Part shown: positions 20,376 to 40,156 of the stretch, in pieces | How the letters are laid out: every line of letters starts with the position of its first letter | Position numbering within the stretch: position 1 is the stretch's first letter | Source of the DNA: Haloarcula rubra | GTDB taxonomy: Archaea > Halobacteriota > Halobacteria > Halobacteriales > Haloarculaceae | Assembly (NCBI RefSeq): GCF_019599465.1 | Contig: NZ_RKLR01000011.1 | Span: 1 to 64,000 of the forward strand | DNA: 64,000 nucleotides | Reading direction: 5' to 3' | Notes under the pieces: model-generated | What the model saw: the letters and a program-made list of their open reading frames with translations, nothing else | Told to the model about the DNA's origin: nothing | Database searches by the model: none | Translations under genes and position numbers: made by a program

Positions 20376-21200
20376 ATGAGCCAGAGTGAGGTACTTAGGA
20401 TTCTCAGAGATTTTGACGGCGAGGCAACGGTTAGTGAAATTCGGAGAGAAGTGCAAAAAAGATTTCCAGACCGTTCTTTAGACACGTATGTTCACAAGAG
20501 GCTCTATTCACTCAGGAACCAAGGCTTAGCTTCTGCCTCAGAGGTAAAAGGAGAAACTGTTTGGAGATTAACTGAGAGAGGTGAAGAATACAAAAATCTC
20601 AGCTCGAATATTGCGGGCATAAGTTCGGCCTCTGCAGAAAAAATAAAAAGCCGTGGTTTATCTGTGGGTAATATTGTTGCTACTGTACTTGTAGCTAATG
20701 AACTTGACTTGACTGAAATAGCTTCAAATCTACAGGCTGCAGAATATCACTCTGAGGTGGATTCTCATCTGACATACTCCCCAAAAGAGTCTATTTGTGT
20801 TTCTTTACGGGTCCCATCAACAGGTCGGGTCACAGTCACTGGGGCAAAGAACTCGGAGCAAATATGTACTGGATTGATGCAGCTCTGCTCTGAGCTTGAT
20901 AAAATCGGTATGAGTGCAGAATTTGATAGAGAGAAAATCATAATTCAAAATGTCATTGCAACTAGAGGAATAGGTCAAGAAATAGACTTAGATGCTTTGA
21001 CCGCATCACTTGGCGACGAAAGAGCAGAGTATAATCCAGACAATTTTCCCGGCATTATTTATCGGCCTAATATTCCAGGCACAGCCTTGATATTCAGAAC
21101 TGGAAAGATTGTATTTAATGGAGTCAAGAACTACGAACAGCTAGCTGAATTGAGTGATAATGTCGAATTGGAAATTTCGAAGAGAAATATTGACTACTGA
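20376..21200 (+). CDS. Winged-helix domain fused to a TATA-binding-protein (TBP) fold
   Basis: A 274-residue protein. Residues 1-75 form a winged helix (SEVLRILRDFDGEATVSEIR, YVHKRLYSLRNQGLASAS, VWRLTERGEEY). From about 95 to 270 it follows the two-repeat TBP saddle. Repeat 1 (NIVATVLVANELDLTEIASNL, then TGRVTVTGAKN) lacks the FPGL segment; repeat 2 (IIIQNVIATRGIGQEIDLDA, NFPGIIYRP, ALIFRTGKIVFNGVKN) is complete. TBP places RNA polymerase at archaeal promoters. A winged-helix fusion suggests a promoter-selective or autoregulating variant. AT-rich codon use contrasts with the backbone. A second TBP gene converges on it 10 bases away. Confidence 0.85.
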   Translation: MSQSEVLRILRDFDGEATVSEIRREVQKRFPDRSLDTYVHKRLYSLRNQGLASASEVKGETVWRLTERGEEYKNLSSNIAGISSASAEKIKSRGLSVGNIVATVLVANELDLTEIASNLQAAEYHSEVDSHLTYSPKESICVSLRVPSTGRVTVTGAKNSEQICTGLMQLCSELDKIGMSAEFDREKIIIQNVIATRGIGQEIDLDALTASLGDERAEYNPDNFPGIIYRPNIPGTALIFRTGKIVFNGVKNYEQLAELSDNVELEISKRNIDY

Positions 21201-21210
21201 CGGGAAAATT

Positions 21211-21753
21211 TCACAGGGTTTTGTATACCGAATTCTTGAAATCTGCAAAGCAACATTCTGCATCGGCGGTCTGCTTACTACCAGTTATTACAACTTTACC
21301 GGTAGCAAAGACCAAAATAACACAGTTTCCATTGTCTGGTCTATAGATTAGACCTGGGAACTGCTCAGGCTCGTATTCAGTCTTCTCGAGACCTAAGCTG
21401 ATAACAAGAGCATTTAGATTGAGATTTTGTCCAAGCTCGGCCGTACAGACGTAGTTTTGAATCGAGAACCACTTATTTTCTGGCCTTTCGATAACGTCCA
21501 TATCAGAGAACAAATTCAGAAATCGCTCTCGGAACGAATAGGACTCTTCCTCGGAGTCTGCACCGGTGATGATGAATTTCCCCGTTCTGTATACCGTTAT
21601 CAGCGGCGCGTCTTCCTCGAATCGGAGGTACATCCCCGGATACTTCTCGGGGTCGTAGCGAGCGACCGGCTCACCAATATCGTCAGCGAGGCGTTCTAAG
21701 TCAAGCTCGGCATCTAGAGCACCGGACGCGACGACATTTACAATCTCTACCAT
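21211..21753 (-). CDS. TATA-binding-protein (TBP) paralogue
   Basis: A 180-residue protein of TBP length with both repeats. Repeat 1 reads MVEIVNVVASGALDAELDLE, ARYDPEKYPGMYLRF and VYRTGKFIITGAD. Repeat 2 reads FSIQNYVCTAELGQNLNLNA, EQFPGLIYRP and LVFATGKVVITGSK. The ATG at 21753 puts the first strand at the N-terminus. Haloarchaea often carry several TBPs, some on plasmids, used with different TFBs. Its start is 144 bases from hsdR on the opposite strand, so it may control this accessory region. The sequence is more divergent than housekeeping TBPs. Confidence 0.9.
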   Translation of the reverse strand: MVEIVNVVASGALDAELDLERLADDIGEPVARYDPEKYPGMYLRFEEDAPLITVYRTGKFIITGADSEEESYSFRERFLNLFSDMDVIERPENKWFSIQNYVCTAELGQNLNLNALVISLGLEKTEYEPEQFPGLIYRPDNGNCVILVFATGKVVITGSKQTADAECCFADFKNSVYKTL

Positions 21754-21865
21754 CCTGCCCTCCGAATCACACTTAGATCTCGTTTCAAATCTCTTCAAGC
21801 CTCGTCTATACACTTGCTGGTTTCCGCTCTCTGTGAGGTATTGTTGAAAGTGACTATCGGAAGAG

Positions 21866-21874
21866 CACTTATAC
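21866..21874 (+). promoter_or_regulatory. TATA box of the hsdRMS operon
   Basis: CACTTATAC ends 22 bases before the hsdR ATG at 21897. This is the archaeal TATA position for a transcript with almost no leader. Confidence 0.5.
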
Positions 21875-21896
21875 CCCGAGTGAAATCTAGTGAGTA

Positions 21897-24119
21897 ATGG
21901 CTGACAAAGGAACCGACCCCGAAGACGAAGCCCGAGAGGTCATTGATACCCAGCTAAAAGAAGCAGGCTGGAAAGACCTCGAGGAACACGGAGGCGATAC
22001 GGGCTTCGAGCGGGAATATTCCACCTCTTCTGGTCCTGTCGACTACGCCCTTCTCGTCTCAGGGAAGCCCGTTGCCGTCGTGGAAGCGAAGGAAGCCCAG
22101 AAAGACGCTTATGCTGCCCTCACTCAAGCCAAACGATACGCACAGGACATCGGTACAGGGGAGAACTACGCCGGGCGGTACGGCGTGCCCTTCGTGTTTA
22201 CTGCGAACTCTGATGAGGTTTGGTTTCAGGACCTTCGGCAAGAGGCCCCGCTTGAACGGAAGCTACGTAACTTCCACCGACCTGAAGGATTCGAACAGTT
22301 CCTCAATACCGATTACAAGGCCGCAAAGGAGTGGCTAGAAGACACGCCGATTCGAGACTCCGACTCGGACCTCTGGGACAATCAGTTCGAAGCCATTCAG
22401 AACATCGAGGAGGCAATTCACCAGAATAAGCGCCGGATGCTCGTTCAGATGGCAACGGGAACCGGGAAAACTCGGATGGCCTGCGCTCAGACCTACCGCC
22501 TCCTGAAATCCGGCTACGTCAATAGCGTTCTCTTCCTCGTCGACCGGAACAGCCTCGGGAATCAAGCCGAGAGCGCGTTCAAAAACTACGATGTCGGCCC
22601 GGCGATGAAGCTGAGCGATATCTACATTATCGAGCAGGTCGAGGACGGCGTCTATCCCGAGAACGCGGACATCGTCATCGCCACCCTTCAGGGGATGTAC
22701 AGTCTGCTCGAAAATCACGACGAACTCGTTATCCCGCAAGACGCGTTCGACTTCATCATCTCCGACGAGTCCCACCGCTCTATCTACGGGGACTGGAGGG
22801 TCGTTTTGAACCACTTCGACGCCCTCCAGCTCGGTCTAACGGCGACCCCGGCGACCCACACACTGAGCTACTTCAACGAGAACTGGGTCTACCAGTACGG
22901 CTACTGGCAGGCCGTCGATGACGGCCACGTCGTCCCCTACGAGACGTACCGGATTCAGACGGGCATTACCATGGACGGCCTCTACTACGAGGATGAGGAG
23001 TACAATCCCGAGGACCTCGAAAACAAAATCACCGTCCCCTCTACGAACCGCCTCATAGCAGAAGAGTTCCGGAAGCAGTCAGGCGAGGACGAAAAGACGC
23101 TAGTTTTCGCTAAGAACGACCGTCACGCTACCGAGTTAGAGAAGATATTCAGGGAGGTCTACTCGGACAAGGACGACCGCTACGTCAAGAAAATCACCTA
23201 CACGACCGACGACCCCGACGGCTGGATTAAGCGATTCAGGAACCAGAAGTACCCGAAAATCGCGGTGACGGTCGATATGGTCAGTACTGGTGTCGACGTC
23301 AAACCTATCGAGAACATCATCTTTATCCGGCCGACTCGTTCCGCCGTCCTCTACAACCAGATGATTGGCCGGGGGACTCGAACCTGCGACGAGATTGGCA
23401 AGGAGAAGTTCACCATCTACGACTGTATCGGCATCGTTGACTACTTCAGCGAAACGCCGCCGTTCAACACGTATCGCCCGGATGGAACCGTCGACGAAGA
23501 GAAATCGGGGAAGAAGAAGCGAGATGACGACGATGACGACGAAATTGTCGTCGCCGACGACGTTCAGGACCACCTCGAATTCTCGGGGTATATGTTCGAG
23601 ACGGAGGACGGCCAAGAGCTACGGCCGGACGACTACGTCACCCACTTCGAGCGGTACGTGAGACAGAACCGATCCGAGATTGAAGCAATAAAAATAATAA
23701 TGGAGTCCCCGGAAGCCCTCAAGCGTAAACACCTCCGGGAACTCAATCGGAAGCTTCAGGACGAACCGGAGAAGTTCTCCGAAGAGAAACTGCAAAAGGC
23801 CTACGGGCAGGAGATGACCGACATCATCGGCTTCATCACACACGCCCTTGGTGACGACGAGTTCCCCACGACGGAAGACCGCGTTGAGAAAGCCTTCGAC
23901 GCCTGGATACAGGATAAGGACTTCACCGAGGAGGAGCGCGAGTGGCTGAATATGATTCAGCGTCACTTCGTGCAGGAGAAGGTCATCAAGAAAGAGGACT
24001 TCAACCGTATTCCGTTCTCCCGGCGCGGAGGTTGGAGGTCTGCTGCGAAAGCGTTCGGTGGCGAAGAGGAACTGAAAGACGTAATTCACGAACTCAACGA
24101 GGAAGTCATCTTAGCATGA
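21897..24119 (+). CDS. hsdR: Type I restriction enzyme, R subunit
   Basis: A 740-residue motor-nuclease subunit. The N-terminal PD-(D/E)xK nuclease shows D49 in GPVDYALLV and E63-A-K65 in VAVVEAKEAQ. The SF2 translocase has Walker A GTGKT at 188-192, DESH at 290-293, a TATPAT-type motif III and QMIGRGTRTC as motif VI. It cuts unmodified DNA after ATP-driven translocation in complex with HsdM and HsdS. Its last codons overlap the hsdM start (ATGA), so the operon is translationally coupled. hsdR is less AT-rich than hsdM and hsdS. Confidence 0.95.
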   Translation: MADKGTDPEDEAREVIDTQLKEAGWKDLEEHGGDTGFEREYSTSSGPVDYALLVSGKPVAVVEAKEAQKDAYAALTQAKRYAQDIGTGENYAGRYGVPFVFTANSDEVWFQDLRQEAPLERKLRNFHRPEGFEQFLNTDYKAAKEWLEDTPIRDSDSDLWDNQFEAIQNIEEAIHQNKRRMLVQMATGTGKTRMACAQTYRLLKSGYVNSVLFLVDRNSLGNQAESAFKNYDVGPAMKLSDIYIIEQVEDGVYPENADIVIATLQGMYSLLENHDELVIPQDAFDFIISDESHRSIYGDWRVVLNHFDALQLGLTATPATHTLSYFNENWVYQYGYWQAVDDGHVVPYETYRIQTGITMDGLYYEDEEYNPEDLENKITVPSTNRLIAEEFRKQSGEDEKTLVFAKNDRHATELEKIFREVYSDKDDRYVKKITYTTDDPDGWIKRFRNQKYPKIAVTVDMVSTGVDVKPIENIIFIRPTRSAVLYNQMIGRGTRTCDEIGKEKFTIYDCIGIVDYFSETPPFNTYRPDGTVDEEKSGKKKRDDDDDDEIVVADDVQDHLEFSGYMFETEDGQELRPDDYVTHFERYVRQNRSEIEAIKIIMESPEALKRKHLRELNRKLQDEPEKFSEEKLQKAYGQEMTDIIGFITHALGDDEFPTTEDRVEKAFDAWIQDKDFTEEEREWLNMIQRHFVQEKVIKKEDFNRIPFSRRGGWRSAAKAFGGEEELKDVIHELNEEVILA

Positions 24120-25519
24120 GTCAGAATAACGGCAAACTTGACGTAGAACAGAAAATTTGGGACATCTGCGGCATCTTACGCGACGACGGGATGCACATCG
24201 GCACCTATGTCGAACAGGTGACGGTGCTGCTGTTCCTCAAAATGATGGACGAGCGGGAGCAGTTTGGTAGCCAGTCCATCGAAATCCCCGAAGAGTGTCA
24301 ATGGAGTACTCTGAAAGACAAAGAGGGTGAGGAACTTCTCGAGCATTACAATCGGGTCGTCCTCCCCACACTCGGAGACCAAGAGGGTATTGTAGGTGAG
24401 ATTTTCGCTCGTGTCAATAGTCAGTTCCGTACTCCGGTCAACCTTCGCGAGGCGATTCGTGAAATTGACAATATAGAATGGTCGGCAGTTGATGTTGATG
24501 TAAAGGGGACTGCGTATGAAGCACTTCTCCAGAGATACGCAGAGGAAGCAAAGGGTGCAGGTCAGTATTTCACACCACGTCCTGCGATTAAGGCGATAGT
24601 CAAAGCGGTTGACCCGGACCATAAAGATAAGATTCATGACCCCGCTGCAGGGACTGGTGGGTTTCTGATTCAGGCTTTTGAGCATATTCTAGAAAAGACA
24701 AATGAGGGCTTGGACCTGAATCGGGAAGAGCGCAGAGCCTTAACCACCGAGAGGCTTTCGGGAATGGAATTGGTGCCCGAAACCCGCCGGCTTGGGTTAA
24801 TGAACCTCGCTCTTCATGACCTACAACCAGAACATTTCGATATTGGTGACTCTTTAGAACCGGGGACGCATACCAATGAGAGGTATGATATTGTACTCAC
24901 TAATCCCCCATATGGTGGTAATCAAAAAAAGACTCGTGCTAGAGATGACTTTATAGTTGACACAAAAAGTCCCGAACTCAATTTCATTCAGCACGCTATG
25001 AGCATTTTGTCTGATGGCGGTGAATGTGGGATGGTTGTCCCAGACGGAGTACTGTTCAAGGGTGGGCAGTCCGAGCGTATCCGGGAAAATCTTCTACGTG
25101 ATTTCAACTTACATACGATATTGGTTCTCCCAATCGGGGCATTCCATCCATATACCAATGTCACTACAAACGTGATATTCTTTGAAAAGGGAGAACCAAC
25201 AGACGAAGTCGGATATTATGACCTCAGAACCAACACCGAAAAAATAAAGAAAAGTAACCCATTGACCGAGAGTCATTTTGAAGATTTCATCAATAACTAC
25301 GATACGAGACATGAAAGCGAACGATTCTTTACCGTCTCCATTGAGGAGATAGAAGAAAACGGATACTCTCTCAATTACAAGCAATACAAAGAATTCGACA
25401 ATACAGAAGACGAATTACCGGAGCCAGAGGAATTGATGACTGAATTCCTATCTCTCCAAGAATCTCTCACAGAGAACATTGAAGCCATCCAAGAAGAGCT
25501 GGAGTTGGAGGAGAAGTAA
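24116..25519 (+). CDS. hsdM: Type I DNA methylase, M subunit
   Basis: A 467-residue N6-adenine methyltransferase. The N-terminal HsdM helical domain includes DICGILRDDGMHIGTYVEQV. Then come QYFTPRPAIKAIV, the SAM-binding motif DPAAGTGG (175-182) and the catalytic NPPY (263-266). The ATG at 24116 overlaps the hsdR stop. It protects host sites and forms the core of the restriction complex. The composition turns markedly AT-rich from about 24.3 kb, hinting at a recombination junction within the gene. Confidence 0.95.
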   Translation: MSQNNGKLDVEQKIWDICGILRDDGMHIGTYVEQVTVLLFLKMMDEREQFGSQSIEIPEECQWSTLKDKEGEELLEHYNRVVLPTLGDQEGIVGEIFARVNSQFRTPVNLREAIREIDNIEWSAVDVDVKGTAYEALLQRYAEEAKGAGQYFTPRPAIKAIVKAVDPDHKDKIHDPAAGTGGFLIQAFEHILEKTNEGLDLNREERRALTTERLSGMELVPETRRLGLMNLALHDLQPEHFDIGDSLEPGTHTNERYDIVLTNPPYGGNQKKTRARDDFIVDTKSPELNFIQHAMSILSDGGECGMVVPDGVLFKGGQSERIRENLLRDFNLHTILVLPIGAFHPYTNVTTNVIFFEKGEPTDEVGYYDLRTNTEKIKKSNPLTESHFEDFINNYDTRHESERFFTVSIEEIEENGYSLNYKQYKEFDNTEDELPEPEELMTEFLSLQESLTENIEAIQEELELEEK

Positions 25520-25520
25520 T

Positions 25521-26816
25521 ATGCGAATGCACAATAGTCAACTCCCCAATCATTGGCAATGGAAGAAGTTGGGTGATGTAGTGACAGTAAACCCACGATA
25601 CCAGTATGATGATTCTCTGGATGAACATCCTCATGTTCCAATGTCGGCGGTGAGCGAAGATACAAAGAGAATTACTGAATTTACCTCTAAGGAAAATATC
25701 TATTCTGGATTATCGAAATTCAAAGAAGATGATGTGCTCTTTGCAAGAATTACTCCCTGCACAGAAAACGGGAAAGTAGCGTTGGTAGCAAACATTCCCG
25801 AGAACTACGAAATGTCATTTGGGTCGTCGGAGTTTGCAGTGTTGAGTGCAGGAGACGAGATATTGCCTCGTTTCCTATATTATCTATGTCAGGCACCGGG
25901 ACTTCGCACTCGTGCAATCAACCAAATGAAGGGTGCTTCAGGTAGGAAGAGGGTCCCATATTCTTTCCTCAGAGAAGAAATAGAGATACCAATACCGCCT
26001 ATAGAAGAGCAAAAACAAATAGTTGAAATATTAGATAGTATATTCCATGAAATTGAGAATATAGAAGAAGTAACACACCGAGAAGAGGAGATAGAATCTA
26101 TCTTCTTTGAATCTGCGTTATCTGATGCGATAAATCAAATTGGAGAGCGGGAAACTAGCGAGTGGATTAGGATTTCGGATGTATGCGATGAAACCAAGAA
26201 CGGGGGGACACCAAAGCGTTCTGAAGAGCGCTATTGGGAAGGTGAAATCCCTTGGTTAAAATCAGGAGAAGTGGACAATAACAAACTGTACGATGCTGAA
26301 GAGTACATTACAAAGAAAGGTCTTGATCAGAGTAGCGCCAAGCTGTTCCGACCAGATACTGTTTTAGTTGCGATGTATGGTGATGGGAACACGAGAGGTC
26401 GCGCTTCACTGCTAAAGGAAGAGATGAGTGCAAATCAGGCTGTCTGTGGTCTCTCACCTAATCAAGAACAGTGTATCCCTGAGTATCTATGGTATTGTGT
26501 TATGTCCTTGAGGGCGAAACTACGGGCAAAAAGTCGAGGAGGGAATCAGGCAAACCTGAATCAGGGAATGATTGTCGAGGAAAAAATCCCACTTCCACCA
26601 CTGGAAACTCAAAGGCACGTCGTAAGCAAACTTAGCCGTATTCAAGATAGGTTTGATAACATCTCCTCGTCACTCGACGGGCAAAGACAGGTTCTCTCGA
26701 TTCTCCCTGAGTCAATCTTACATAGCGTTCTGAAGGGAGAGACCACTCCAGTAGAAGGAGAATTTAGAAGCGGAATCAATGACTCAGGCCAATTAGCGAT
26801 ACAAGAATTCAACTGA
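25521..26816 (+). CDS. hsdS: Type I specificity subunit
   Basis: A 431-residue protein starting one base after the hsdM stop (ATG 25521). It has the expected two target-recognition domains, each followed by a conserved helix: TRD1 opens with NHWQWKKLGDVVTVNPRYQY and ends near PIPPIEEQKQIVEILDSI; TRD2 contains NGGTPKRSEERYWEGEIPWL and ends near PLPPLETQRHVVSKLSRI. The two halves set the bipartite recognition sequence, which cannot be read from the protein alone. Confidence 0.93.
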   Translation: MRMHNSQLPNHWQWKKLGDVVTVNPRYQYDDSLDEHPHVPMSAVSEDTKRITEFTSKENIYSGLSKFKEDDVLFARITPCTENGKVALVANIPENYEMSFGSSEFAVLSAGDEILPRFLYYLCQAPGLRTRAINQMKGASGRKRVPYSFLREEIEIPIPPIEEQKQIVEILDSIFHEIENIEEVTHREEEIESIFFESALSDAINQIGERETSEWIRISDVCDETKNGGTPKRSEERYWEGEIPWLKSGEVDNNKLYDAEEYITKKGLDQSSAKLFRPDTVLVAMYGDGNTRGRASLLKEEMSANQAVCGLSPNQEQCIPEYLWYCVMSLRAKLRAKSRGGNQANLNQGMIVEEKIPLPPLETQRHVVSKLSRIQDRFDNISSSLDGQRQVLSILPESILHSVLKGETTPVEGEFRSGINDSGQLAIQEFN

Positions 26817-28611: not shown

Positions 28612-28635
28612 TTACTATCTCGGTATTTGGCAGAA

Positions 28636-29868
28636 ATGACTGATCAACAGAAAGGTAACGTTCAGCACGTCTGCATATATCAGTGCCGACCTCAAGCTGA
28701 TGACCCTTGGTACGATCTTTATGAGGAAATCGATGCTGATGAGTTAGATGATTACGAGAACACCAAGGATATTGTTCGGGGGTTTATGGGAACTTTAGAG
28801 CCAAAGCAGTATGGAGATCCGTCCATTAAGAGTGCTCGCAAACATGATTTTGATACAGAGGCCACTCAATCAACTCTCAATACCCTCTCAACCTTCCATT
28901 TGGATGATGATACTAGCGTGGACAGCGTGGAAAAAGAAGACGAATCAGAAGAAGATAGCGGCGAAGAGGAAACAGAAGGCGATAGTGAGGCTGAAGAAAC
29001 TTTTTTAGATGTATCGGATCCATTGGTTGATGGGTATGTTGAAGCACCTAATAGCGTAGATTGTTTTCTGTTGTTTGTTGAATATAGGTGGGAAAGTGAT
29101 CGGTATGAATCAGAAAACAGGTTGATGGTTGTACAACTTCCTCTGCGAGAGGACGTCTTTATTCCTGGAGAAGAGGACGAAGGAGATGAAGACGCAGAAG
29201 AACTGTTCTCTCAGCTCCAAGATGCTTTCGATGATAATTTGAAAAAATCAGTATTGTACCCTTATCAGGAGATACCCGAGTTGGAAGACGATAGCTCAGA
29301 AGAGGCTACAGATGGGACAGATGAAACTTCTGAAGACGATAATTCAGATGAAGATCGTCTGGGTGTTGCTTATCTGTATCAGGGTAATGGACAAGCACAA
29401 TACTGGTATAAGTACCTTGATTTACAAGAAGAGGAACATAAGGACGAAATTCTGGCAAATCAACGGGTTGAGATTATAAAACAGTTGCAAGATGACGATA
29501 CTGATGTGGAGGATGTTGATGATCCATTTAAAGAAATTGACTCGTTGGAAGATGTTGATCTTGATGATCTACCTGATGGTATCGATCAGTATTGGGAGAG
29601 TGGTGTAGTTGTAGAGATAGGGAATGTCAAGATCCAGGGTATTACTGTAGGCGATGTTCTCGGACAGGATGCAATTGAGTTCTATGAAAGTGAGGAGACC
29701 GACGAGGTATTCACGGTCGTAAGAGGACAGGAACCATCGTTCCGACCTGTGGGACAAGGAACTTATCACCAGACGGGCGATGAAGAAGATAATGATGAGA
29801 CTATTGACATCCCTATTTTCCCGGAACTATCTGAATACAAAGACCTGAGCCAACTGATTAATGATTGA
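28636..29868 (+). CDS. Unrecognised very acidic protein (gene A of the candidate defence cluster)
   Basis: A 410-residue protein with no recognised family. The N-terminal ~95 residues (NVQHVCIYQCRPQADDPWYD, IVRGFMGTLEPKQYGDPSIK) appear folded. Two long acidic Glu/Asp/Ser linkers, near residues 100-125 and 225-245, divide it into three folded parts, the middle one containing VDCFLLFVEYRWESDRYESE. The C-terminal part has GNVKIQGITVGDVLGQDAIE. It may be a scaffold or sensor rather than an enzyme. The ATG at 28636 lies 24 bases after a TATA box. Its end overlaps the next gene by 8 bases. Confidence 0.7.
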   Translation: MTDQQKGNVQHVCIYQCRPQADDPWYDLYEEIDADELDDYENTKDIVRGFMGTLEPKQYGDPSIKSARKHDFDTEATQSTLNTLSTFHLDDDTSVDSVEKEDESEEDSGEEETEGDSEAEETFLDVSDPLVDGYVEAPNSVDCFLLFVEYRWESDRYESENRLMVVQLPLREDVFIPGEEDEGDEDAEELFSQLQDAFDDNLKKSVLYPYQEIPELEDDSSEEATDGTDETSEDDNSDEDRLGVAYLYQGNGQAQYWYKYLDLQEEEHKDEILANQRVEIIKQLQDDDTDVEDVDDPFKEIDSLEDVDLDDLPDGIDQYWESGVVVEIGNVKIQGITVGDVLGQDAIEFYESEETDEVFTVVRGQEPSFRPVGQGTYHQTGDEEDNDETIDIPIFPELSEYKDLSQLIND

Positions 29869-31870
29869 GGAATTATCAATACTAGAATATATTCAGGAAG
29901 CCTATTTAGAGGATGCAACATGGGCTCCGGAGACGGTGACAGTCAATAACCAGCCGGTTAGTGAGCTGTCTAGATCAGAATTTGAGTCGTTAGTAGAGCA
30001 GATTGATTCTCGTCCGAGATGGTTCAGAAGTTTCCAACTCGCTATCCCGGCATCTTCACCATATGAGACCGAGACTCAGGTCCTTACCCTCCAAAACGGA
30101 GTGGGTTTTGAGCAAGGTGGAGTCACTGAAATGCTATCTGAGAGCGATGAGGATAGCGCAGATTGGGCGGGAAGAATTTCGAATCATTTCTCAGATGGTG
30201 AGCATCGAGAAGGAGTTGAGCTGATCTTTGAGGCCCTCGGTATATCAGACATAGACGAGCTAGAAATATCAATCACAGTTAATAAATCACATATCGTAGA
30301 AGATTTTTGCGACGAAAATTCGGTGGGTGTTAGCGATGCGGATGTACAACTGTGGACTAGTAAAGAGACGCTGGGGCAATGGATTGAGAGATCCAGCGTA
30401 GAACATATAATTGACAGACAGTTCAATGATTCGAGCACACCCTATCACTACTTTCTGGAAAATGAGGGAGTTGAAGAGAGCCGGTTTCTGGGTTTTGTGT
30501 CGGCTCATTCCTTGGAAAACGGTAGAACGGATTTTCTCCCCGTGAGTTGCCAGGAGAATTATAGGCGAGAACAAGAGATACTATCTTCTGTTTTTGAGGA
30601 TACTAAGTTCAGCTCCCCGCCTGTTTCACCACTTGTATTTGATAATCCAGTAATCCGTGGGATGTATCAAAGTGTCTTTGTTTTTGCGGCTACTGCTTGT
30701 CTAGCCAGTGATTACAGCCTCAGCAGAGATTCATTTGAAGCAGAGACAAAGACCGACCGGCATCATACGAGAAGTGAGTTTGATTTTAATGAACCAAGTG
30801 ATGTTTCGTTTGACGACCAACCACTGAATGACTTGTATAGTCTGTTGGAGCAGGTGCTTCACGGTGACGGACCGTCCTCCCTGAACCATTGGCACCAAGC
30901 TGTCGCCACCCATTGTTCATCTTTTACCGAGATTCCGTTAAAACGTCGTGAGATTGTTCACTACTGTGGATTCCTCCAAGAGGAAGCAGCTAAACAAGAA
31001 TTAGAGCAACTACAAAACACGGTTGAAGAAGCATTCGAGTTAACGAGAACTGTCGCAAACTCACTTTCAGAAGCCTCTCAGTCTCTTACATCGGATCTTC
31101 AGAAGGTCATCATCACACTTCTGGCCGCTATAGTAACGAATTTCGTTCTGATTCTACGCTATTCGGATCTTCATGTTCTTGCCCCATTCAGCGTAGCAGC
31201 CATCGCAGCAATTCTCATCTTTTACTTCCCGATCATTCAAAACGAGATAGATGAAACCCAGTCGGTAATGGAGAACCGTACTGGGGATTTCATAATTTAC
31301 CTTTCAGAGATCCGTAGTCACGTAGGTACACGAGTTTTTGACCTTGAAAAGATAGAGGGCCAATATAAAGTTCATCTCAGAACCGCGTTCAATTCGCTTC
31401 AAAATGCGAGACAGACCACCAGTAGAATCTATCTGCTGTTGGTACTGATTTGGGCGATAATCATCTTTTACGGGTTGCTCATAATAGCAGATAACACATT
31501 CATTGGTCTACAAAATTCGCTCAGCGATCTTGGCTTGCAAACATCCACTAACCAGGGCCAAGGAACTATAAAAATAACAATACTAGTCTCAACAGTGCCG
31601 GCAATCTGGCTCCTCTACAAATTAATCAGCTATCACTATTCTTCTGAGGGCAAATTCCTATCATGTTCTCTGACTCCAGTTGAATCACCAAACGATCCAG
31701 AAATCAACTTCCCTCAGATAGAAGATGAGTCAACCAGCATGGACGAAGTCGATATTGACTTCTTTGAAAATGCTACCCCTCGTCATTATTTTGATTTCTG
31801 TCCGCTCCTTCTGACAATACTTTTCATTAGTATTATCGCAATCGCTGGTGCCGCAATATGTATCAATTGA
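29861..31870 (+). CDS. Unrecognised membrane protein (gene B of the candidate defence cluster)
   Basis: A 669-residue protein. The first ~380 residues are soluble and acidic without known motifs. A coiled-coil-like helix (AAKQELEQLQNTVEEAFELT) precedes two membrane segments near residues 425-475 (VIITLLAAIVTNFVLILRY; AAIAAILIFYFPII). A helical hairpin follows, then two more segments near 525-545 and 570-595, and a hydrophobic C-terminus (LLLTILFISIIAIAGAAIC). A large soluble domain joined to about five membrane helices recalls membrane-acting effectors of defence systems, but the function is inferred. It overlaps gene A by 8 bases. Confidence 0.7.
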   Translation: MIEELSILEYIQEAYLEDATWAPETVTVNNQPVSELSRSEFESLVEQIDSRPRWFRSFQLAIPASSPYETETQVLTLQNGVGFEQGGVTEMLSESDEDSADWAGRISNHFSDGEHREGVELIFEALGISDIDELEISITVNKSHIVEDFCDENSVGVSDADVQLWTSKETLGQWIERSSVEHIIDRQFNDSSTPYHYFLENEGVEESRFLGFVSAHSLENGRTDFLPVSCQENYRREQEILSSVFEDTKFSSPPVSPLVFDNPVIRGMYQSVFVFAATACLASDYSLSRDSFEAETKTDRHHTRSEFDFNEPSDVSFDDQPLNDLYSLLEQVLHGDGPSSLNHWHQAVATHCSSFTEIPLKRREIVHYCGFLQEEAAKQELEQLQNTVEEAFELTRTVANSLSEASQSLTSDLQKVIITLLAAIVTNFVLILRYSDLHVLAPFSVAAIAAILIFYFPIIQNEIDETQSVMENRTGDFIIYLSEIRSHVGTRVFDLEKIEGQYKVHLRTAFNSLQNARQTTSRIYLLLVLIWAIIIFYGLLIIADNTFIGLQNSLSDLGLQTSTNQGQGTIKITILVSTVPAIWLLYKLISYHYSSEGKFLSCSLTPVESPNDPEINFPQIEDESTSMDEVDIDFFENATPRHYFDFCPLLLTILFISIIAIAGAAICIN

Positions 31871-31984
31871 CGATTGGACTACAGGGTGCGAAGAAGGTTT
31901 GCACGAAGTTAACGATTTCCGGGGCAGAACAGTCGTAGTGCTTGTGGCTAAAGCTTTTGTCGACTGGTTAAGAATTGCGTAATA

Positions 31985-33253
31985 ATGAGCGACGGAGAGG
32001 GACTCGAAGGCTACGATCCAGACGAAGTTCTTCTGGACCGGATCGATAATCGCAGCAAGGAGTTCACCAATCGTCTCCATGAAATGTTCGCTGGTGACCG
32101 CCTCGATCACAGGGCACCAATGGTCCGCATTCTTCTTGTGGACCGTTTTGAGGAACAGGTTCGGGAGTTCGTAAAAAACTATGACCTGTTGAAAGAGCGG
32201 AACATCAACCGACGGTATGCTGAAGAATTTCTGGAGTCTGAGTATGATGTCCCGCGGGAAGACTTGGATACAGACGATCGCTGGGAATTGCTTCTCGTTA
32301 TCTACGAACATGGGCTAGAAGACGAGCTTGAAAAGATTATGTTCCGCTCGGAGCTGTTCGCGGTCAAGAACGAGGAATCATACTATCTTGATGAGAAGCT
32401 TGAGATCGACGATATCGATACCAAAGTTAGCGAGTTCATGGAACAGGTGAACATCGAGGAACAACGGTTGGACCCGCTGCGGATTCTCGTTGATTCTGAC
32501 GATGAGGCCGTATTCTTGCAAATCTATCGCGAGTACGGCCGGAAATACCGCCGAATCTTCGAGTTCCGTGATAACGGCAAGGATACACCGCCAGCAGAAC
32601 CATCTATCTCTGGAGAACAATATTACCCTCTTAAGAATATTGGCATTAGCATCGAACCGCAAGAGAGTGAAACAAAAATAACCTTTACCAAGAAACCGGG
32701 TGCCAAGGGGTGGCGGCAGGAGATTAGTGAACTGTTTGATTTCCTGTTCGGTATTGACGAACCGTTGGAACGATTTACTGAAGAACGATCTGAAGTAATC
32801 GAGACGATTCAACAGGGTGCGAAGGAAGCGGCGGAGAACGAAGAGAATACCTCCGAGGCTTTAAAAGAAGTAATTTCTGAGACGAAGGAAGATCGAAAGG
32901 AGGATCTAAAAGATGGAGAACTACCGGAAGACAAGGAAGAAGAGTTGATAACAAAATACGAATCGATAGAACTTGTGGGCTATGCGATTAGCGACGACCA
33001 GTCGACAAGCACTGACGAGTTTGTTATTATTGCGAACAACTTAGACAATCTGTTTGAGACAATCGACGGCATTGAAACCAGCTTCCAAGACTACTTAGAG
33101 AAAGCCGATGAGGAGAATATCGAACTTGTTCTGCAAATCGGCGGTGAACGGATTCGTCTGGAATCCGGCGACTGGTCGCCATTGAGCGGACGAATATCAG
33201 AAGAGAACAAGGAGGCACTGGAACGGTTCTTCCAACCCAGCAATGAGGAGTGA
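31985..33253 (+). CDS. Unrecognised helical protein (gene C of the candidate defence cluster)
   Basis: A 422-residue protein, mainly helical and charged. The start MSDGEGLEGYDPDEVLLDRI leads into APMVRILLVDRFEEQVREFV, then a region of helices about 60-150. A strand-rich segment is near 205-235 (NIGISIEPQESETKITFTKK), and a long charged helical segment follows (ENTSEALKEVISETKEDRKE). There is no P-loop, nuclease or methylase motif. It ends 11 bases inside gene D, so C and D are coupled and probably act as partners. Confidence 0.7.
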   Translation: MSDGEGLEGYDPDEVLLDRIDNRSKEFTNRLHEMFAGDRLDHRAPMVRILLVDRFEEQVREFVKNYDLLKERNINRRYAEEFLESEYDVPREDLDTDDRWELLLVIYEHGLEDELEKIMFRSELFAVKNEESYYLDEKLEIDDIDTKVSEFMEQVNIEEQRLDPLRILVDSDDEAVFLQIYREYGRKYRRIFEFRDNGKDTPPAEPSISGEQYYPLKNIGISIEPQESETKITFTKKPGAKGWRQEISELFDFLFGIDEPLERFTEERSEVIETIQQGAKEAAENEENTSEALKEVISETKEDRKEDLKDGELPEDKEEELITKYESIELVGYAISDDQSTSTDEFVIIANNLDNLFETIDGIETSFQDYLEKADEENIELVLQIGGERIRLESGDWSPLSGRISEENKEALERFFQPSNEE

Positions 33254-34697
33254 TACTGTTCAAGCACTGCAGACATTCCTCGCAGAGGAGCGTCCAGTTG
33301 AGGAGGAAATGGTTCCTGCAGAGTTAGATGGTTCGTACTGCGAGAAACTAGTGCAGCCACCCAGCACCTGTGTAATCGATGGCTGTGTCAACGAAGCCCG
33401 GGTGTTGGAAGAGGATGGACAGTTCTTGGTCCGGTGCTACGCGAACTCCGAGCATGTCGAATATGTCGATAAAAATGATCGGCAGCGGTATCGGCCTGAC
33501 TTTGAGGCCGTATTGAATGATGTCGCCGCCAATCTTAGTCTTACCCCGGTGGACTATACTGGTGATGCCTTACCCCGATATGCTTTGGTTCGGACAGAGG
33601 AAAACATCGACATTGCGGTATTGTATGGACCGAATGACTACAAGAAGACGATCAAGGACGTGTTGCAGCGGACAATCGAGAATGGCGAACCTTGTCTCCT
33701 ACTGACTCCGCGAGGCGAAATAAGCGATATCGTCGAACTGCAATCGGTCTACGGCACAGGCTATCTCGCCTATGCTATGCCTTTCCAACAGGTTGCCAGC
33801 ACCACGCAAATTCAAGAGACACTTCAAACGATTGTGGAACTGCATGCGCTCAACCAACAGGTAATAACGGACCGGTTTGGCGAAGATCCGAACGATTTCA
33901 CCGTTAAGGCCGATCGCAACCCTAGCTACATCTTGTCGGAACTAAGTCAGCTTAAGATACTCCGTTCAAATGGAGAGATTCGCAATGGAGATGGAAGCCG
34001 ATTGGAAAAGATCAGTGAGGCCGCGTTCTCACATCTATTCAGTGTACAACCAGGGTTCGGTGGTGAGGACAGTGTCGGTGAGATAGAACCGGATAATCTC
34101 TTCTACATTCAGGAGGATGGAAGCCACGGTATGATAGAGTATGAGCCGGTTCTAGGAGTTGTGGATACAAAGTCGGGGAAGGTGGCGAATTTCGGGCAGG
34201 AGAAGGTAGATGGTAAGCATGAAGAATATGTGAAGCGGGCGCGAAGTTACTCGTTCCAGAGTGCGGCGATCGCACATATTTTCGTCGTGGCAAATGTCCG
34301 TGGGAAGCAAGAGATCAAATTCTATGACCGAATGCAGCGCCATTATGACGAAGATATGTATATGGTGGTGTTGACAGTAGATGCGTTTTTGGCGATCATG
34401 GCCGCGTATCTCTCGGCAACTCTTTCGAACGAACTCTCACTCGATGGTGGATCGTTTACAAGAGGTGTATATCCGCTTTTCCACCGAGATACGTTCAATT
34501 CAGCTGAATATCAGTACCTGCGGGAGTATACACGGAGTGTCGGACGGTCGGAAGAGGAGCAGTCTGAGTATGAACAGGACTACGATGAGCGGTCTAGTTT
34601 GCTTGTGGTTACTCGAGATGTAGTCATCGCTCATTTAGAGCAGAGGATCGAAGGAACAGGAGAAATCGAGAGACTACTGGAGACTTACCTAGAATAG
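33243..34697 (+). CDS. Predicted PD-(D/E)xK-like nuclease with N-terminal zinc site (gene D of the cluster)
   Basis: A 484-residue protein. Cysteines C33, C43, C48 and C65 near the N-terminus could hold zinc. A nuclease-like core is suggested by E255/E259 in RLEKISEAAFSHLF, P283-D284, and D308-T-K310 in VLGVVDTKSGK, followed by a helix and the strand IAHIFVVAN. This is the order and spacing expected of restriction-type endonuclease folds, with Asp in place of the common Glu. If correct, this is the DNA-cutting member of the cluster. Start overlaps gene C by 11 bases. No whole-protein family is recognised. Confidence 0.65.
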   Translation: MRSDTVQALQTFLAEERPVEEEMVPAELDGSYCEKLVQPPSTCVIDGCVNEARVLEEDGQFLVRCYANSEHVEYVDKNDRQRYRPDFEAVLNDVAANLSLTPVDYTGDALPRYALVRTEENIDIAVLYGPNDYKKTIKDVLQRTIENGEPCLLLTPRGEISDIVELQSVYGTGYLAYAMPFQQVASTTQIQETLQTIVELHALNQQVITDRFGEDPNDFTVKADRNPSYILSELSQLKILRSNGEIRNGDGSRLEKISEAAFSHLFSVQPGFGGEDSVGEIEPDNLFYIQEDGSHGMIEYEPVLGVVDTKSGKVANFGQEKVDGKHEEYVKRARSYSFQSAAIAHIFVVANVRGKQEIKFYDRMQRHYDEDMYMVVLTVDAFLAIMAAYLSATLSNELSLDGGSFTRGVYPLFHRDTFNSAEYQYLREYTRSVGRSEEEQSEYEQDYDERSSLLVVTRDVVIAHLEQRIEGTGEIERLLETYLE

Positions 34698-34714
34698 GTG
34701 ATATTAGATCATGA

Positions 34715-34930
34715 ATCTGCAAGGAGAGACGGGACATACTCGAGGTCGGTGCAGATGGACGTGTTGAGTCGGTCAGTGAGGCCTTGTTGCTAGGCAATGC
34801 CAACGAAGAACTGTTCGGTGATGACAATGTCAGCATCCAAGAAATTTGTGAGGAGATTCTCTCGCTCACGAAGCTGGACGATGAGGATTCAATCTGTGCT
34901 CTTGAACTACCTGACCCAAATAAAGTCTAA
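34715..34930 (+). pseudogene. Start-less C-terminal protein fragment
   Basis: 71 codons on the plus strand, from just after an in-frame TGA to TAA at 34928-34930. They read like a real acidic haloarchaeal protein tail: RRDILEVGADGRVESVSEAL, LLGNANEELFGDDNVSIQEI, CEEILSLTKLDDEDS. There is no ATG or GTG start in frame. It is probably the end of a lost gene that once followed gene D in the cluster. Confidence 0.5.
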
Positions 34931-37890
34931 CAGTTGAGACTCCTTCAGAAGTCGTTAAGTCGGTCTTCTTGATGTTCTATACCATCTAAGAGACGGTCTT
35001 CAGCTTCTTCAGCGAACAGTCGAACGGAGGATGGGAGTGAGAGGTCTTCTTGCCAGTCGCGGAGCATCTCTATCTCATCTTCCTTCTTGCTGACTCCGGA
35101 CAGACTCCGAGTTGCGAGGGCGTCTGTGTAGAGTGCGCTGTGGATCACGTGTTGCACGGATTCTGCTTCATGGATGTTGTCGACGCCTTCGGTCGCTACT
35201 TTTCGATAAATTTTCTTCGTATCCTCAGTTACCGGGAGGAACTTGCAGTACCAGATAACTTGGAGTAACTGGTCCTCAGAACAGTCTGGGATCCTTGGTA
35301 GTAGGTGCTCTGTGATATCCGCTATGGGGAAGCACCCGGTTAGATCTGAGAACGCCATTGGGGTGTAGTAGTCAGTGTCGAGAATCCGTTCACATATTTT
35401 ACTGACTGCAGATTCGTAGCTCTCTGCTGTTTTCATCCGGTCTGTTTCTATGTCCAAGTGAGTCGGTAAAAGTGAGACACCAGTGTATTCGTTTTCCAGC
35501 CGTTGGAGAGCGAAGTCGACGAACTGCTCTGGGTCCCGTTCTGCAACCTCCTCGATTACGAGTTGAACGCTATGTGATTCTGAGGCCAGGTTTTCTCTTT
35601 TCTCAGCGTAGTCCAACACCTGCTCAAGGATTGCTCCATCCACAGCCTTCGAGTCGTCCTTGTACAACGGAAGTGGCTGCAAGGCGGAATCCACGGACTG
35701 TGGATCAAGTGACTCTGCATCTTGTAGAAGCCTAAGAAGGATTGATTCTGTCCACTCCTGATGGTCTTCCCAGTGTCCATTCACAACTTGGCTTATACCT
35801 GAGACAAATTCTGGAGGGTATGGCGATTGATGTCCCAGCAGATCCTCGACTTTCTGCTGGACGTAGTCTAGATCTTCCGAAGATAGCGCTCGGAGACCGG
35901 CTGGAGCCAAGTCGAATCGTTCTTCTTTGATATATTGGTTGACGAGGTCTTTCCCTTTCTCAGGGTCAGCAGAGCAGATTCCCATCAGGACGTGCGGTAA
36001 GCAGGGTTTGAGATCGGGTTCATCTGCTTCGAGAAGTTGTACGCCGAAGTCGGGGCGTTCATCTGCCAGTATCATGAAGAATTGGTTGAAAGAGGAGTCA
36101 GTAACCTCCGAGACGATATCCTTGAAATCGCCTGGTTCGAACCCCCCTTCGTCCATTTCTCCTGCGAAACTCCGGATTTCAGCTTCCCACTCCTCTATCT
36201 TCTTCGGTCCTCCGCGCCGCATGTGCTGAAGAAGTTGGTACCGCTCGTTGTCTTCTAGTTCTTCCTGAAATTCCTGGATCTCTTCTTTGAGCCCGAGTTC
36301 ATCTGCGTTTTCACGATCAGCTAACCGGCTCAGAGCATCGATACACTGCAAGTCCTCATCTTCAGAGACGTATTCAGTGGCGAATCCGAGTATCTTAGCC
36401 AGTTCTTCTTGATGGAATACTTCCTGATGTTTGCTGTAGTACCTGGCTTGGGAGTTTTCAAACCCTCTTAATTTTTCTGCAGCGGTTTTCCGTACCTCGG
36501 GGTGTGGATCTTTCCGGATTATCTCGATGAGTAGGTCGATTGCTTGTTTTCGGAGTTCCAGCCATGACTCCGTTACAGGCACTTTCCCCTGCCAAGATCG
36601 CATCTGAGAGCGGTTGATCGGGTCGACAGAGAAGTCGTGTATCTCGGTGCTTGAGACCTCCCCGATGACGTCGAGCAGGTCGAGTCTGAGTTCGTCGTCG
36701 AGTTCTCCAGAGAGGAAGTGTTCCCCGATTACGTATAGGATCTTTTGTTGGGCACCCGGTGATTTATTGAATCCTGGGCGTAGTGCTTCCCGTAGTTTTT
36801 GATCAACGCTACCGGTCTGAAGCTGTGACTGAGACGGATAATTGACTGCGATCCAGAGCAACCACCAAGTAGCGTCTTCCGGCTCTCCCTGTAGTGCGTT
36901 GGAAAGCAGATCGATTGACTCGATTAGAAGGTCTCCTGCTGGAGAAGCGGTATACATTGACCTCCGGAATAGCTGTTCTTCTTCCGGGTCTTCGGGTAGT
37001 TCTTCTTTTTGTACGGCTTTGACGAGTTCTATGGCGTAATGTGGATGAGTTGACCCTAGAATCTTGAACCTACGAAGCAGTTTCACTCTCTCCGCAAACC
37101 CGTATTCGCTTATTTTCTCTTTCTCCGTATTTAGACCGTCTCGAATTGTTTTCCGGGCTTCTCGACAGTTGTATCGTCGGTGAATTATAGCTAACTGGTT
37201 TATTTGATTCTTCCCGGTGAACTCGCTGAAGTTGTCGTAGATTTCATCTTGGTAGTCGCGTGGAGAGTCAGAGAAGAAGCTGTTGTAGACAATATATTCT
37301 TGGAGCGCGTCAGGTTGGACAGTTAGACGATCCGAATGTTCGGCCACGAGCCCGATATTTTCTGTCAATATTTCCCTTAGCTCGATATCAGTAGCTCTGT
37401 CCACTGATATTGCTTCTCGAAATTTCTGTAGTAGATCATCGTTGTTCGTATCCAGTTCTCCGATTGCTGCAAGGTACTTAACGTACGTCTCCAGCTTCTT
37501 CGGACTGCCTACTCCCTGTTGCTCCCCCAGTTTTTGGACATCTGATAGAACGTCGTCGAAGACGGCTTCAAGAGATTTATCTTGAGCAATGGCATCTGAA
37601 GTTTGATCATCGTTGGAAAACTGGTCGGCTAAGAGATGGGCGAAAAGAGGCAAGCCTTCACTTATTGAAACGATCTGGTCTAGTGTAGCAGGATGGTTGA
37701 TCCCGTAATATTCTTGTAAAATTTCGTGGATGTCATCGGTGTTCAACGGTTGAAGTTCGACTACTTCAGTTTCTACGTCCCTGAATCGGTTACCGTAATC
37801 TTGTAGCGAAGAGATGAAATGCGGCCTCTCTGAAAAAATGAGTTTAAGATGTGGCTGGTACTGGTCTACGAGATCAAATAGGCGCTTGAT

Positions 37891-39293
37891 CATCCGTCTT
37901 TAGCTAAGAGAAGAACCGCTGTACAGCAGTAGCTTATCGAGGCTGCTTTTCGAGAGGAATGAGGAGGCGACGAGTGTGCACAACGGCACCTCCTCATCGA
38001 GAATGATGCGTCGGCTCACTACACTGTTTCCCTCCGAGTTCCTCGAAGAGCACGCCGAGGAACTCGGCGTGGTCGAGCGAGAGGGCAAGCTTCAGATTCC
38101 TGTCCTCGTGTGGACGCTCGTGTTCGGCTTCGCCGCAGGCGAGAGCCGAACACTCGCTGGGTTTAGACGCTGCTACAACGCTACAGCTGACGAACCGATC
38201 TCTTCTGGCGGTTTCTATCACCGGTTGACGCCTACTCTTGCAGAGTATCTCCGCGACCTCGTCGAGCGCGGCCTCGACGAGGTCGCTGTCCCTGATGCTG
38301 TTGACGCTGATATCGACCGATTCAGGGACGTGATGATCGCTGATGGAACGGTGTTGCGGTTGCACGAGTTCCTCTCTGATGAGTTCCAAGCCCGTCACGA
38401 GGAGCAGGCTGGAGCGAAGCTCCACCTGCTCCACAATGCCACCGACCAGACGATTGAACGGATCGATGTGACTGATGAGAAAACGCACGACAGTGCGCTG
38501 TTCAAGACAGGATCGTGGCTGCAAGGACGACTGGTTCTGTTTGATCGAGCGTACTTCAAGTACCGCCGCTTTGCGTTGATCGATGAGAATGACGGCTACT
38601 TTGTGAGTCGGCTGAAGCAGAACGCAAATCCGGTGATAACGACGGAATTACGGGAATGGCGCGGCCGCGCCATTCCCTTGGAGGGCAAGCAGATCCACGA
38701 CGTGGTCGATGATCTCTCGCGGAAGTATATCGACGTAAAAGTCGAGGCAGAGTTCAAACGCGGGCCGTACAACGGCACACGGTCGCTGGACACGAAGCGG
38801 TTTCGCGTCGTCGGCGTCCGCAACGAGGACGCCGACGACTACCATCTCTATATCACGAATCTGCCGCAAGAGGAGTTTCTCCCGGCGGATCTAGCGACGC
38901 TGTATCGGTGTCGATGGGAGGTAGAAACGTTGTTCCGTGAGTTGAAAACGCAGTACGAACTGGACGAATTCGACACGAACAACCCTGATGTCGTGAAAAT
39001 TCTACTATACGCTGCGTTGCTGTCACTGCTGGTGAGCCGGGAGTTGTTGGATCTGGTCACCGAGCAGGCCGACGATGAGATTGTGTTTCCGCCGGAACGC
39101 TGGGCGGCGACCTTCCGGTCGCACGCCCAGCTCATCCTCCACGAACTCGGTGAGTACCTCGGCTACTCGCCACCGCCGTTGCTGGAGCGGCTGATCAAGG
39201 ATGCTCAGAAGATCCACCAACAACGACCGATACTCCAAGAGACGCTCGCTACCGCTACACAACCGAGGTGTGAGTCTTAGCTAAAGACGAATG
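37891..39293 (+). mobile_element. ISH8-like (IS4 family) insertion sequence
   Basis: The element is 1403 bp long. The left end CATCCGTCTTTAGCTAAG and the inverted right end CATTCGTCTTTAGCTAAG match in 17 of 18 positions. The target duplication GGCGCTTGAT is present on both sides (37881-37890 and 39294-39303). Size and duplication length agree with ISH8. The intact duplication implies a recent insertion into the ATPase gene. Confidence 0.92.
37976..39280 (+). CDS. ISH8-like IS4-family DDE transposase
   Basis: The open frame of 434 residues carries the DDE elements of IS4-group transposases: a first Asp in MIADGTVLRLHEF, a second in LVLFDRAYFKYRRF, and the Y-(2)-R-(3)-E-(6)-K signature with YRCRWEVETLFRELKTQY. 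The likely start is either this GTG at 37976 or a downstream ATG at 38003/38006. The frame is intact, so the element can probably move. Confidence 0.93.
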   Translation: MHNGTSSSRMMRRLTTLFPSEFLEEHAEELGVVEREGKLQIPVLVWTLVFGFAAGESRTLAGFRRCYNATADEPISSGGFYHRLTPTLAEYLRDLVERGLDEVAVPDAVDADIDRFRDVMIADGTVLRLHEFLSDEFQARHEEQAGAKLHLLHNATDQTIERIDVTDEKTHDSALFKTGSWLQGRLVLFDRAYFKYRRFALIDENDGYFVSRLKQNANPVITTELREWRGRAIPLEGKQIHDVVDDLSRKYIDVKVEAEFKRGPYNGTRSLDTKRFRVVGVRNEDADDYHLYITNLPQEEFLPADLATLYRCRWEVETLFRELKTQYELDEFDTNNPDVVKILLYAALLSLLVSRELLDLVTEQADDEIVFPPERWAATFRSHAQLILHELGEYLGYSPPPLLERLIKDAQKIHQQRPILQETLATATQPRCES

Positions 39294-40156
39294 GGCGCTT
39301 GATTTGGTCAGTGTTCCGGGCATCGTCTACGAAGAGGATAGTGTTCCTCTCCTCCTTTAGTTCGAGTTCCTCCAACCCGTCGTCGATATTTCCGGCGTGG
39401 ATGTCTGTCCAGTATATCTGCCAGTTCGGCTTTTCGGCCTCCAAGAGCAGACTGCCTTCAACGACGAGCCTTGTCTTCCCGATACCTGCTCGTCCGGAGA
39501 GTATGAGTACATCTTCCTCAGAGTTTGGAAAGTCGGTAATCGTGTCTAGTTCATTTTCCCGGCCGAAGAACGGGAGATCGTACCTATCATATGGATGTTC
39601 TCCGTTGAGCCGTTCTTGGAATCTTTCTGGTATGGGCTGGAAAACGCTGTATTTCTTATCCGTGGGGAGTCGACCTGCTATCTCTTGGATTTCAAGAAGT
39701 ATCTCACTTTGACCTTCCTCCAGATCTTCTGTGTACTGATGTATTCGCTGGGTATAGTCCATTATCAGTTTGTGACCGATCTCCTGATTTTGGCTTATCT
39801 CCAGCTCCAACTGATTCAGAAATTCGTTTACGAGGTCTTCTGGCGAGGCTTCAACCTGTTCGCCAAGCATGTCTTCGTTGAATACCTCCCCAATATCTGA
39901 AGGCGGAATCAAATCGTCTCCATCGTCAAATTCTTCGACGAGTTCAACGACATGATCATCCTCGAAGATATGGATGAAGACATCAGCGTCCAAGCCTTCG
40001 TGATTCTCCGCTACGTGAGAAGCTGCATTTTCTACAGCTTCATTCAGGAAGTGCATCCGCTTCCCCTTCCCATAGAGGTACTTCGCTGTAGAAGAAGCGA
40101 GGATGCTTGCACCTATCGAGATCGGTTCGACCATACTCCGTTTATTCAGGTTACCA

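Follow-up and report, generated by a model that had tools for sequence, protein, structure and literature searches.

TATA-binding proteins of the TbpC-like clade, including a winged-helix fusion in Haloarcula rubra, are linked to restriction-modification and BREX systems

The locus

We analysed a window of 64,000 nucleotides from Haloarcula rubra (assembly GCF_019599465.1, contig NZ_RKLR01000011.1, positions 1 to 64,000), which opens a 114-kb contig in a 4.67-Mb genome. It contains two genes for TATA-binding proteins (TBPs) that converge tail to tail beside a type I restriction-modification (R-M) operon. One of them encodes a winged helix-turn-helix (wHTH) domain fused to a TBP saddle (wHTH-TBP), and the other, TBP2, is divergent from hsdR. 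The features of the locus, with the evidence for each in brackets, are as follows.

20376..21200, + strand: wHTH-TBP fusion, 274 aa, group W of the TbpC-like clade (open reading frame [ORF], Pfam, AlphaFold2, Foldseek, and a full-length relative, L008/L038, in genome G073)
20376..20600, + strand: N-terminal winged-helix domain, residues 1-75 (DSSP, Foldseek 2co5, weak NCBIfam NF050184, wHTH of G073)
20658..21182, + strand: TBP saddle of wHTH-TBP, residues ~95-269 (Pfam, AlphaFold2, Foldseek, stirrup residues)
21201..21210, no strand: 10-base gap separating the 3' ends of the convergent TBP genes (ORF ends)
21211..21753, - strand: TBP2, a TbpC-like TBP of 180 aa (PF00352, 3e-47; relatives in G052 and G392)
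21754..21896, no strand: putative TBP2-hsdR divergent promoter region, 143 bp (aligns over its full length with L174 and L298)
21857..21873, + strand: putative BRE/TATA-like element TCGGAAGAGCACTTATA (conserved in L174 and L298)
21897..24119, + strand: hsdR, type I restriction subunit (PF08463, PF04851, PF04313; PADLOC REase_I)
24116..25519, + strand: hsdM, type I methyltransferase (PF02384, 3e-70; PF12161; its ATG overlaps the hsdR stop codon)
25521..26816, + strand: hsdS, type I specificity subunit (PF01420, 6.5e-44)

Pfam and PADLOC identify hsdR, hsdM and hsdS, all the genes of a type I R-M system. The initial annotation of the window, which had placed hsdRMS next to the fusion and had described a second, divergent TBP converging on it across 10 bases, was correct on both points. 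The natural start of TBP2 is the ATG at 21753; the mechanical ORF extends to 21813. From there, TBP2 and hsdR (start 21897) diverge with 143 bp between their start codons, an arrangement that was absent from the initial annotation and is conserved in other genomes. The domain scan of TBP2 yielded no HTH or WYL match, and its fold is that of a TBP. An ordinary TBP is encoded once in the host genome, on another contig. Transcription factor B (TFB) gives 25 matches in the genome, none of them on the window contig, which thus has no dedicated TFB.

The wHTH-TBP fusion and TBP2

Two repeats of PF00352 were detected in wHTH-TBP (E=3e-30). Its AlphaFold2 model, based on a 49-sequence alignment, has a mean predicted local distance difference test score (pLDDT) of 92.2 and a predicted template modelling score (pTM) of 0.75, and shows a winged helix at residues 3-65 that is joined by further helices to a TBP saddle (96-269). 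All 44 Foldseek matches in the PDB at E<=0.001 were TBPs (best 4e-16), and the C-terminal part is thus a TBP fold by structure prediction, structure comparison and Pfam. In the winged helix, DSSP assigned the elements H3-12, E16-18, H19-29, H36-48, E52-57 and E60-65 to the model. This N-terminal part resembles the F93 winged helix of Sulfolobus turreted icosahedral virus (2co5; Foldseek E=1.4e-3), and it gives a weak match, under the family's cut-off, to the phage protein NCBIfam NF050184 (4e-7). Given that the ORF has no start codon between residues 27 and 96, both parts are made as one chain; a TBP part translated alone would have to start inside the saddle. The 274-residue fusion first read from the sequence is thus borne out by ORF, Pfam, AlphaFold2 and Foldseek.

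Residue positions are named after Ravarani et al. (PMC7221094), with N.L5.1 for the Phe that contacts TATA and C.L3.2 and C.L3.4 for the acids that contact TFB. The first TBP repeat of wHTH-TBP lacks FPGL, as initially described, with D129 at the position of the first N-lobe stirrup Phe; the second (N.L5.1) is P147. The C-lobe stirrup pair is retained as F224 and F240, and C.L3.2 and C.L3.4 are N220/D222 instead of E/E. In TBP2, both N-lobe stirrup positions are Tyr, the C-lobe has FF and the TFB contact is E/E. Since the DNA-intercalating N-lobe Phe pair is lost in both proteins (D129/P147 and Y/Y), neither is an ordinary TBP. This combination, with the N-terminal pair lost and the C-terminal pair kept, is the TbpC-like signature. 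TbpC-like TBPs, missing the N-terminal Phe pair, were described by Becker et al. in 2014, where their role was left at 'nonfunctional or very specialized' (PMC4230888).

A single clade under purifying selection

TBP2-like TBPs were gathered by profile from 391 genomes, blind to genomic context, together with the 20-kb regions around them. All TBPs without Phe at N.L5.1 (non-Phe TBPs), both window proteins among them, form one haloarchaeal clade of 68 sequences (support 0.973). In the same tree, the Tyr clade on the TBP2 side has a support of 0.782, and wHTH-TBP falls in its sister, group W, with 10 sequences (support 0.96), 8 of which carry Pro at N.L5.1. Judged by its residues, the clade appears to match the TBPs described as TbpC-like; the tree does not include TbpC of Halobacterium NRC-1 itself, which is tied to the clade by signature.

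The C-lobe Phe residues are kept almost throughout in a set of 64 non-Phe TBPs (C.F1 in 64, C.L5.1 in 62), where the TFB contact is E/E in 63 and N.L5.1 is Tyr in 53. In close pairs dN/dS is 0.06-0.26, alike in both protein halves. The retained C-lobe Phe and TFB-contacting acids and the low dN/dS point to a working protein that is able to meet TFB and has a changed N-lobe. A different explanation would be that these are decaying paralogs in which the N-terminal Phe pair was lost under relaxed selection, as suggested to be possible for TbpC by Becker et al. (PMC4230888). The dispensability of tbpC in NRC-1, where its deletion had no apparent phenotype (PMC2121645), and a few broken copies (L040, L234 and L257) would agree with decay. 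The dN/dS values in both halves argue against it, as do the prevalence of Tyr at N.L5.1 and the near-universal gene linkage described below, so that we disfavour decay and regard it as extremely improbable.

Pairs of TBPs recur: 7 of 63 loci have two or three TBPs (the window, L040, L176, L313, L314, L321 and L331), generally one of Tyr/Tyr type and one more divergent member. The pair in L331 is arranged tail to tail like that of the window; the gap is 9 bases, and one of the TBPs has an enzyme gene divergent from it. Tandem TBP genes are also found in the Thermoplasmata (L082, L089, L090, L110 and L126), several with N/K, D/A or R/K at the TFB contact; they represent a separate duplication without a link to R-M markers.

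Linkage to restriction-modification and BREX genes

Ten markers of R-M and bacteriophage exclusion (BREX) systems were sought within 6 kb of each TBP: PglX, PglZ, BrxC, BrxHII, HsdR, HsdM, HsdS and the type IIG, DUF1156 and N6N4 methyltransferases. Counts were made after duplicates had been merged, with TBPs divided by the presence or absence of Phe at N.L5.1, and ordinary TBPs from genome contig loci and plasmid records served as controls. A marker was present beside 58 of the 64 non-Phe TBPs and 2 of the 76 Phe TBPs (Fisher 9e-30, a P value that does not come from independent events because the rows are related). Without the window and the loci selected through BREX, the counts were 52/58 and 2/76. 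Because most ordinary controls are not haloarchaeal, those of haloarchaea were counted separately, and none of 24 had a marker (0/11 among the fetched loci and 0/13 on plasmids). The count for group W is partly circular, since several markers were taken from group-W loci; the test of the Tyr-type TBPs is largely independent, with HsdRMS queries taken from the window. Of the six misses, five have annotated genes of such systems nearby: for a type IIG enzyme, for BrxHII and a type IV enzyme, for BrxC and TmtA, or for an N6_N4 methylase. The remaining one, L082, is one of the tandem TBPs of the Thermoplasmata and falls outside the clade. The clade is tied specifically to R-M and BREX systems, almost without exception.

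The 13 ordinary plasmid TBPs counted above lack the Tyr signature (the Phe motif was seen in 12, and one is a fragment), whereas all four Tyr-type plasmid TBPs have a marker within 6 kb. Plasmid TBPs, which the initial annotation had mentioned, are therefore the wrong reference class. Its suggestion that the TBPs redirect transcription to accessory genes fits the linkage, once narrowed to R-M and BREX genes.

Within group W, TBPs lie in BREX type 5 loci (L040, L171 and L172), by a type IIG enzyme (L170), by a DUF1156 methylase with an SNF2 helicase (L039) and by N6/N4 methylases (L041 and L169, and more weakly L173/L037). Looking from the BREX side, a TBP was found within ~9 kb in 10 of 64 BREX-5 PglZ loci, where about 1 in 64 would be expected at three TBPs per genome; in one BREX-5 locus scan, 2 of the 6 TBPs found were truncated. 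BREX-5 as an obligatory partner was ruled out by the same count. In Halobacterium NRC-1, VNG_RS11040 is a Tyr-type TBP in a methyltransferase-helicase-TBP operon (L350, pNRC200 107069-112532) with a 4-base overlap. By signature and position it is probably tbpC, which is VNG5142 and is 1.7-fold up at low salt (PMC1971269).

In R-M and BREX operons, clade TBP genes overlap or nearly abut their neighbours, and many others are divergent from the enzyme genes. This organization bears on the alternative in which the TBP, instead of being a transcription factor, belongs to the R-M/BREX machinery itself as a subunit that bends DNA or senses targets. In several operons, that of NRC-1 included, the TBP gene shares 1-4 bases with a helicase or HsdM gene, which would suit a subunit. 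TBP-like lobes outside transcription, in RNase H3 and RnlA, bind nucleic acids, the Tyr at N.L5.1 is reminiscent of the Tyr/His that bacterial TBP-like lobes carry (PMC7221094), and TBPs occur in the bacterial TALON/TOTE conflict systems (PMC12458937). Yet the TFB-contacting acids, unconserved in bacterial TBP-like lobes (PMC7221094), are almost invariant here, and divergent orientation speaks against a subunit as well. Considering that the enzymes served by this one clade are unrelated (type I, IIG, type II, BREX and DUF1156), a common regulator fits better than a fitted subunit, which we consider rather unlikely.

Relatives of the fusion and of the TBP2-hsdRMS unit

A full-length relative of wHTH-TBP was found in one other genome (G073) among 146 of the family, with 33% identity over residues 1-272. 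A class-wide search of the 391 genomes with a TBP-core profile that left out the wHTH columns revealed no further fusion among the best-scoring loci, and there was none in the viral contigs searched. In G073 the gene is part of a BREX type 5 operon that runs on to brxHII; 102 bp separate it from pglX on its upstream side and 5 bp from pglZ on its downstream side. The fused winged helices of the two proteins are 33% identical (E=2e-13, single comparison). The architecture is rare but not unique, which corrects the initial annotation, where no other TBP with an N-terminal winged helix was known. An AriA/OLD-like ATPase gene (L038 3948-5543) is divergent from the BREX-5 operon holding this second wHTH-TBP. 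No separate gene homologous to the fused wHTH was detected near unfused group-W TBPs with a two-sequence profile.

Among the 391 genomes, close relatives of the window HsdR (94-95% identical) occur in two, G052 and G392. In both, a TBP2-like gene is divergent from hsdR and wHTH-TBP is absent. The 143-bp intergenic sequence and the divergent layout are conserved in the three genomes. The conserved unit is thus TBP2 with hsdRMS, and wHTH-TBP is an extra partner. Within the intergenic region, TCGGAAGAGCACTTATA ends 23 bp before the hsdR ATG, and it has a single match in the 4.67-Mb genome with up to one mismatch allowed. Similar TCGGAAG sequences also precede TBPs in L176 and L321; TCGGAAG recurs at few loci, with too few independent cases for it to be claimed as a common TbpC motif.

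Viral loci and separate winged-helix genes

In two related haloviruses, the site between the ribonucleotide reductase and integrase genes is occupied by R-M cassettes that differ from each other, and each cassette includes a TBP of its own whose N-lobe stirrup lacks Phe. In the Haloarcula virus HJTV-2 (L367, 31047-34324), the cassette comprises the TBP, a convergent winged-HTH gene that overlaps its 3' end, an N4-cytosine methyltransferase and an Eco29kI endonuclease; in the Halorubrum virus HRTV-9 (L368, 31319-35615), a type IIG enzyme is followed after 16 bp by the TBP. L169 has a homologue of the HJTV-2 winged-HTH gene 52 bp upstream of its group-W TBP, and L329 has one close to its TBP, so that wHTH, TBP and DNA methylase recur as separate genes. 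A PadR-like wHTH gene adjoins, or shares a locus with, three TbpC-like TBPs. Homology of the PadR-like or HJTV-2 wHTH to the fused domain was not detectable (E about 0.03-0.04). PadR-family wHTH genes adjoin ordinary plasmid TBPs as well (L349, L357 and L361), which makes the adjacency of TBP and wHTH genes broader than the defence clade.

Genomic surroundings

The hsdR, hsdM and hsdS genes and an integrase lie in an AT-rich region that spans positions ~18 to 41 kb of the window. This low-GC island with its integrase, the many loci on plasmids and the viral copies would be in keeping with selfish or counter-defence control, in which TBPs of mobile islands and plasmids express island genes in new hosts and the R-M linkage is a side effect. 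Against this stand the ordinary TBPs, which reside on the same kind of plasmids without R-M linkage, the closeness of the linkage, which consists of adjacent genes or a shared operon, and pNRC200 of NRC-1, where the TbpC-type and the ordinary TBP are in different contexts. We judge this alternative unlikely.

Past the integrase, window positions 28627-37893 hold five large genes (410, 669, 422, 484 and 982 aa) without Pfam or PADLOC matches, except for weak HEAT repeats in the last (982 aa); they are candidates for a defence system of a new kind. The right end of the AT-rich island (37976-40704) contains a DDE transposase, a fragment of a STAND-type NTPase gene (39280-40134) and a truncated integrase N-terminus (40354-40704).

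A proposed role in controlling defence operons

On the evidence of sequence and gene order, we hold it moderately probable that TbpC-like TBPs are system-encoded initiation factors controlling DNA-methylation-based defence operons. The retained TFB contact, the purifying selection, the conserved 143-bp region and the unique TCGGAAGAGCACTTATA favour a dedicated initiation factor, and the whole looks like a general transcription factor fold put to use as a dedicated controller of immunity. TBP2 would use its intact C-terminal lobe to bind the divergent region that it shares with hsdR. By way of its conserved acidic contacts it would bring in a TFB of the cell, and would thereby adjust and balance the expression of itself and hsdRMS. 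The altered N-terminal stirrup may change promoter preference, in which case the housekeeping TBP would not be a free substitute. A second, rarer partner, wHTH-TBP may use its winged helix as a second DNA anchor where the N-lobe has lost its intercalating Phe and, because its TFB contact is weakened (N220/D222), would modulate or oppose TBP2 at the same promoter. That the pair acts as a switch during infection, as first proposed, is possible.

Several observations weigh against this role. A general TbpC promoter motif was not found across the loci, and TCGGAAGAGCACTTATA is one conserved site. The 1-4 base overlaps with helicase genes suit a structural subunit equally well. wHTH-TBP is the sole protein among the 64 non-Phe TBPs whose TFB contact is not E/E. 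Finally, most BREX-5 loci lack a TBP, and BREX-5 therefore does not require one. A more specific idea, that the altered N-lobe (Tyr/Tyr or x/Pro) and the winged helix sense whether the DNA at the shared promoter is methylated or intact, coupling transcription of the restriction genes to genome protection with the paired TBPs as an on/off switch, seems to us quite improbable.

Bacterial R-M and BREX systems have controller (C) proteins and BrxR, respectively, which are small DNA-binding regulators encoded next to the defence genes, often divergently, and are HTH or HTH-WYL repressors or activators. TBP2 likewise lies beside defence genes but has the fold of a basal initiation factor, and the proposed likeness is one of function only. 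In eukaryotic paralogs of the TBPL1/TRF2 type, the N.L5.1 Phe is replaced and another promoter preference has been proposed (PMC7221094); unlike the window TBPs, they carry Trp instead of Tyr or Pro, are nuclear genes and have no defence link. TOTE/TALON, with a TBP gene inside a conflict-system operon as in loci of this clade, is the nearest published idea; TALON is described from Bacillati and has TPR-CSD and a NERD nuclease (PMC12458937). General domain scans, with no search dedicated to them, showed none of these partners, and no TPR or CSD match, among the window neighbours. Haloarchaeal BREX type 5 houses the other wHTH-TBP between pglX and pglZ, whereas the window locus is a type I R-M system without PglX or PglZ. 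The TbpC-like TBPs of Becker et al. share with the window proteins the loss of the N-terminal and retention of the C-terminal Phe pair, and a patchy distribution. Their description there gives no genomic context (PMC4230888); what is added here is the linkage to R-M and BREX genes, the evidence of purifying selection, and the Pro-type group W with its wHTH fusion. No published link of TbpC-like TBPs to R-M or BREX was found in open-access papers, and the main texts of an archaeal R-M survey (PMC10609329) and of a halovirus genome paper (PMC8651126) do not mention TBP.

TBP is treated as the general transcription factor of archaea, and why haloarchaea have many TBP copies is an open question. 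The near-universal link to R-M and BREX gives the TbpC clade, for example tbpC of Halobacterium NRC-1, a concrete and testable role. The combination of Tyr/Tyr or x/Pro in the N-stirrup with an intact C-stirrup provides a sequence signature for finding defence loci. These findings suggest that archaeal immune systems, unlike those governed by bacterial controller proteins, may bring their own promoter-recognition factor.
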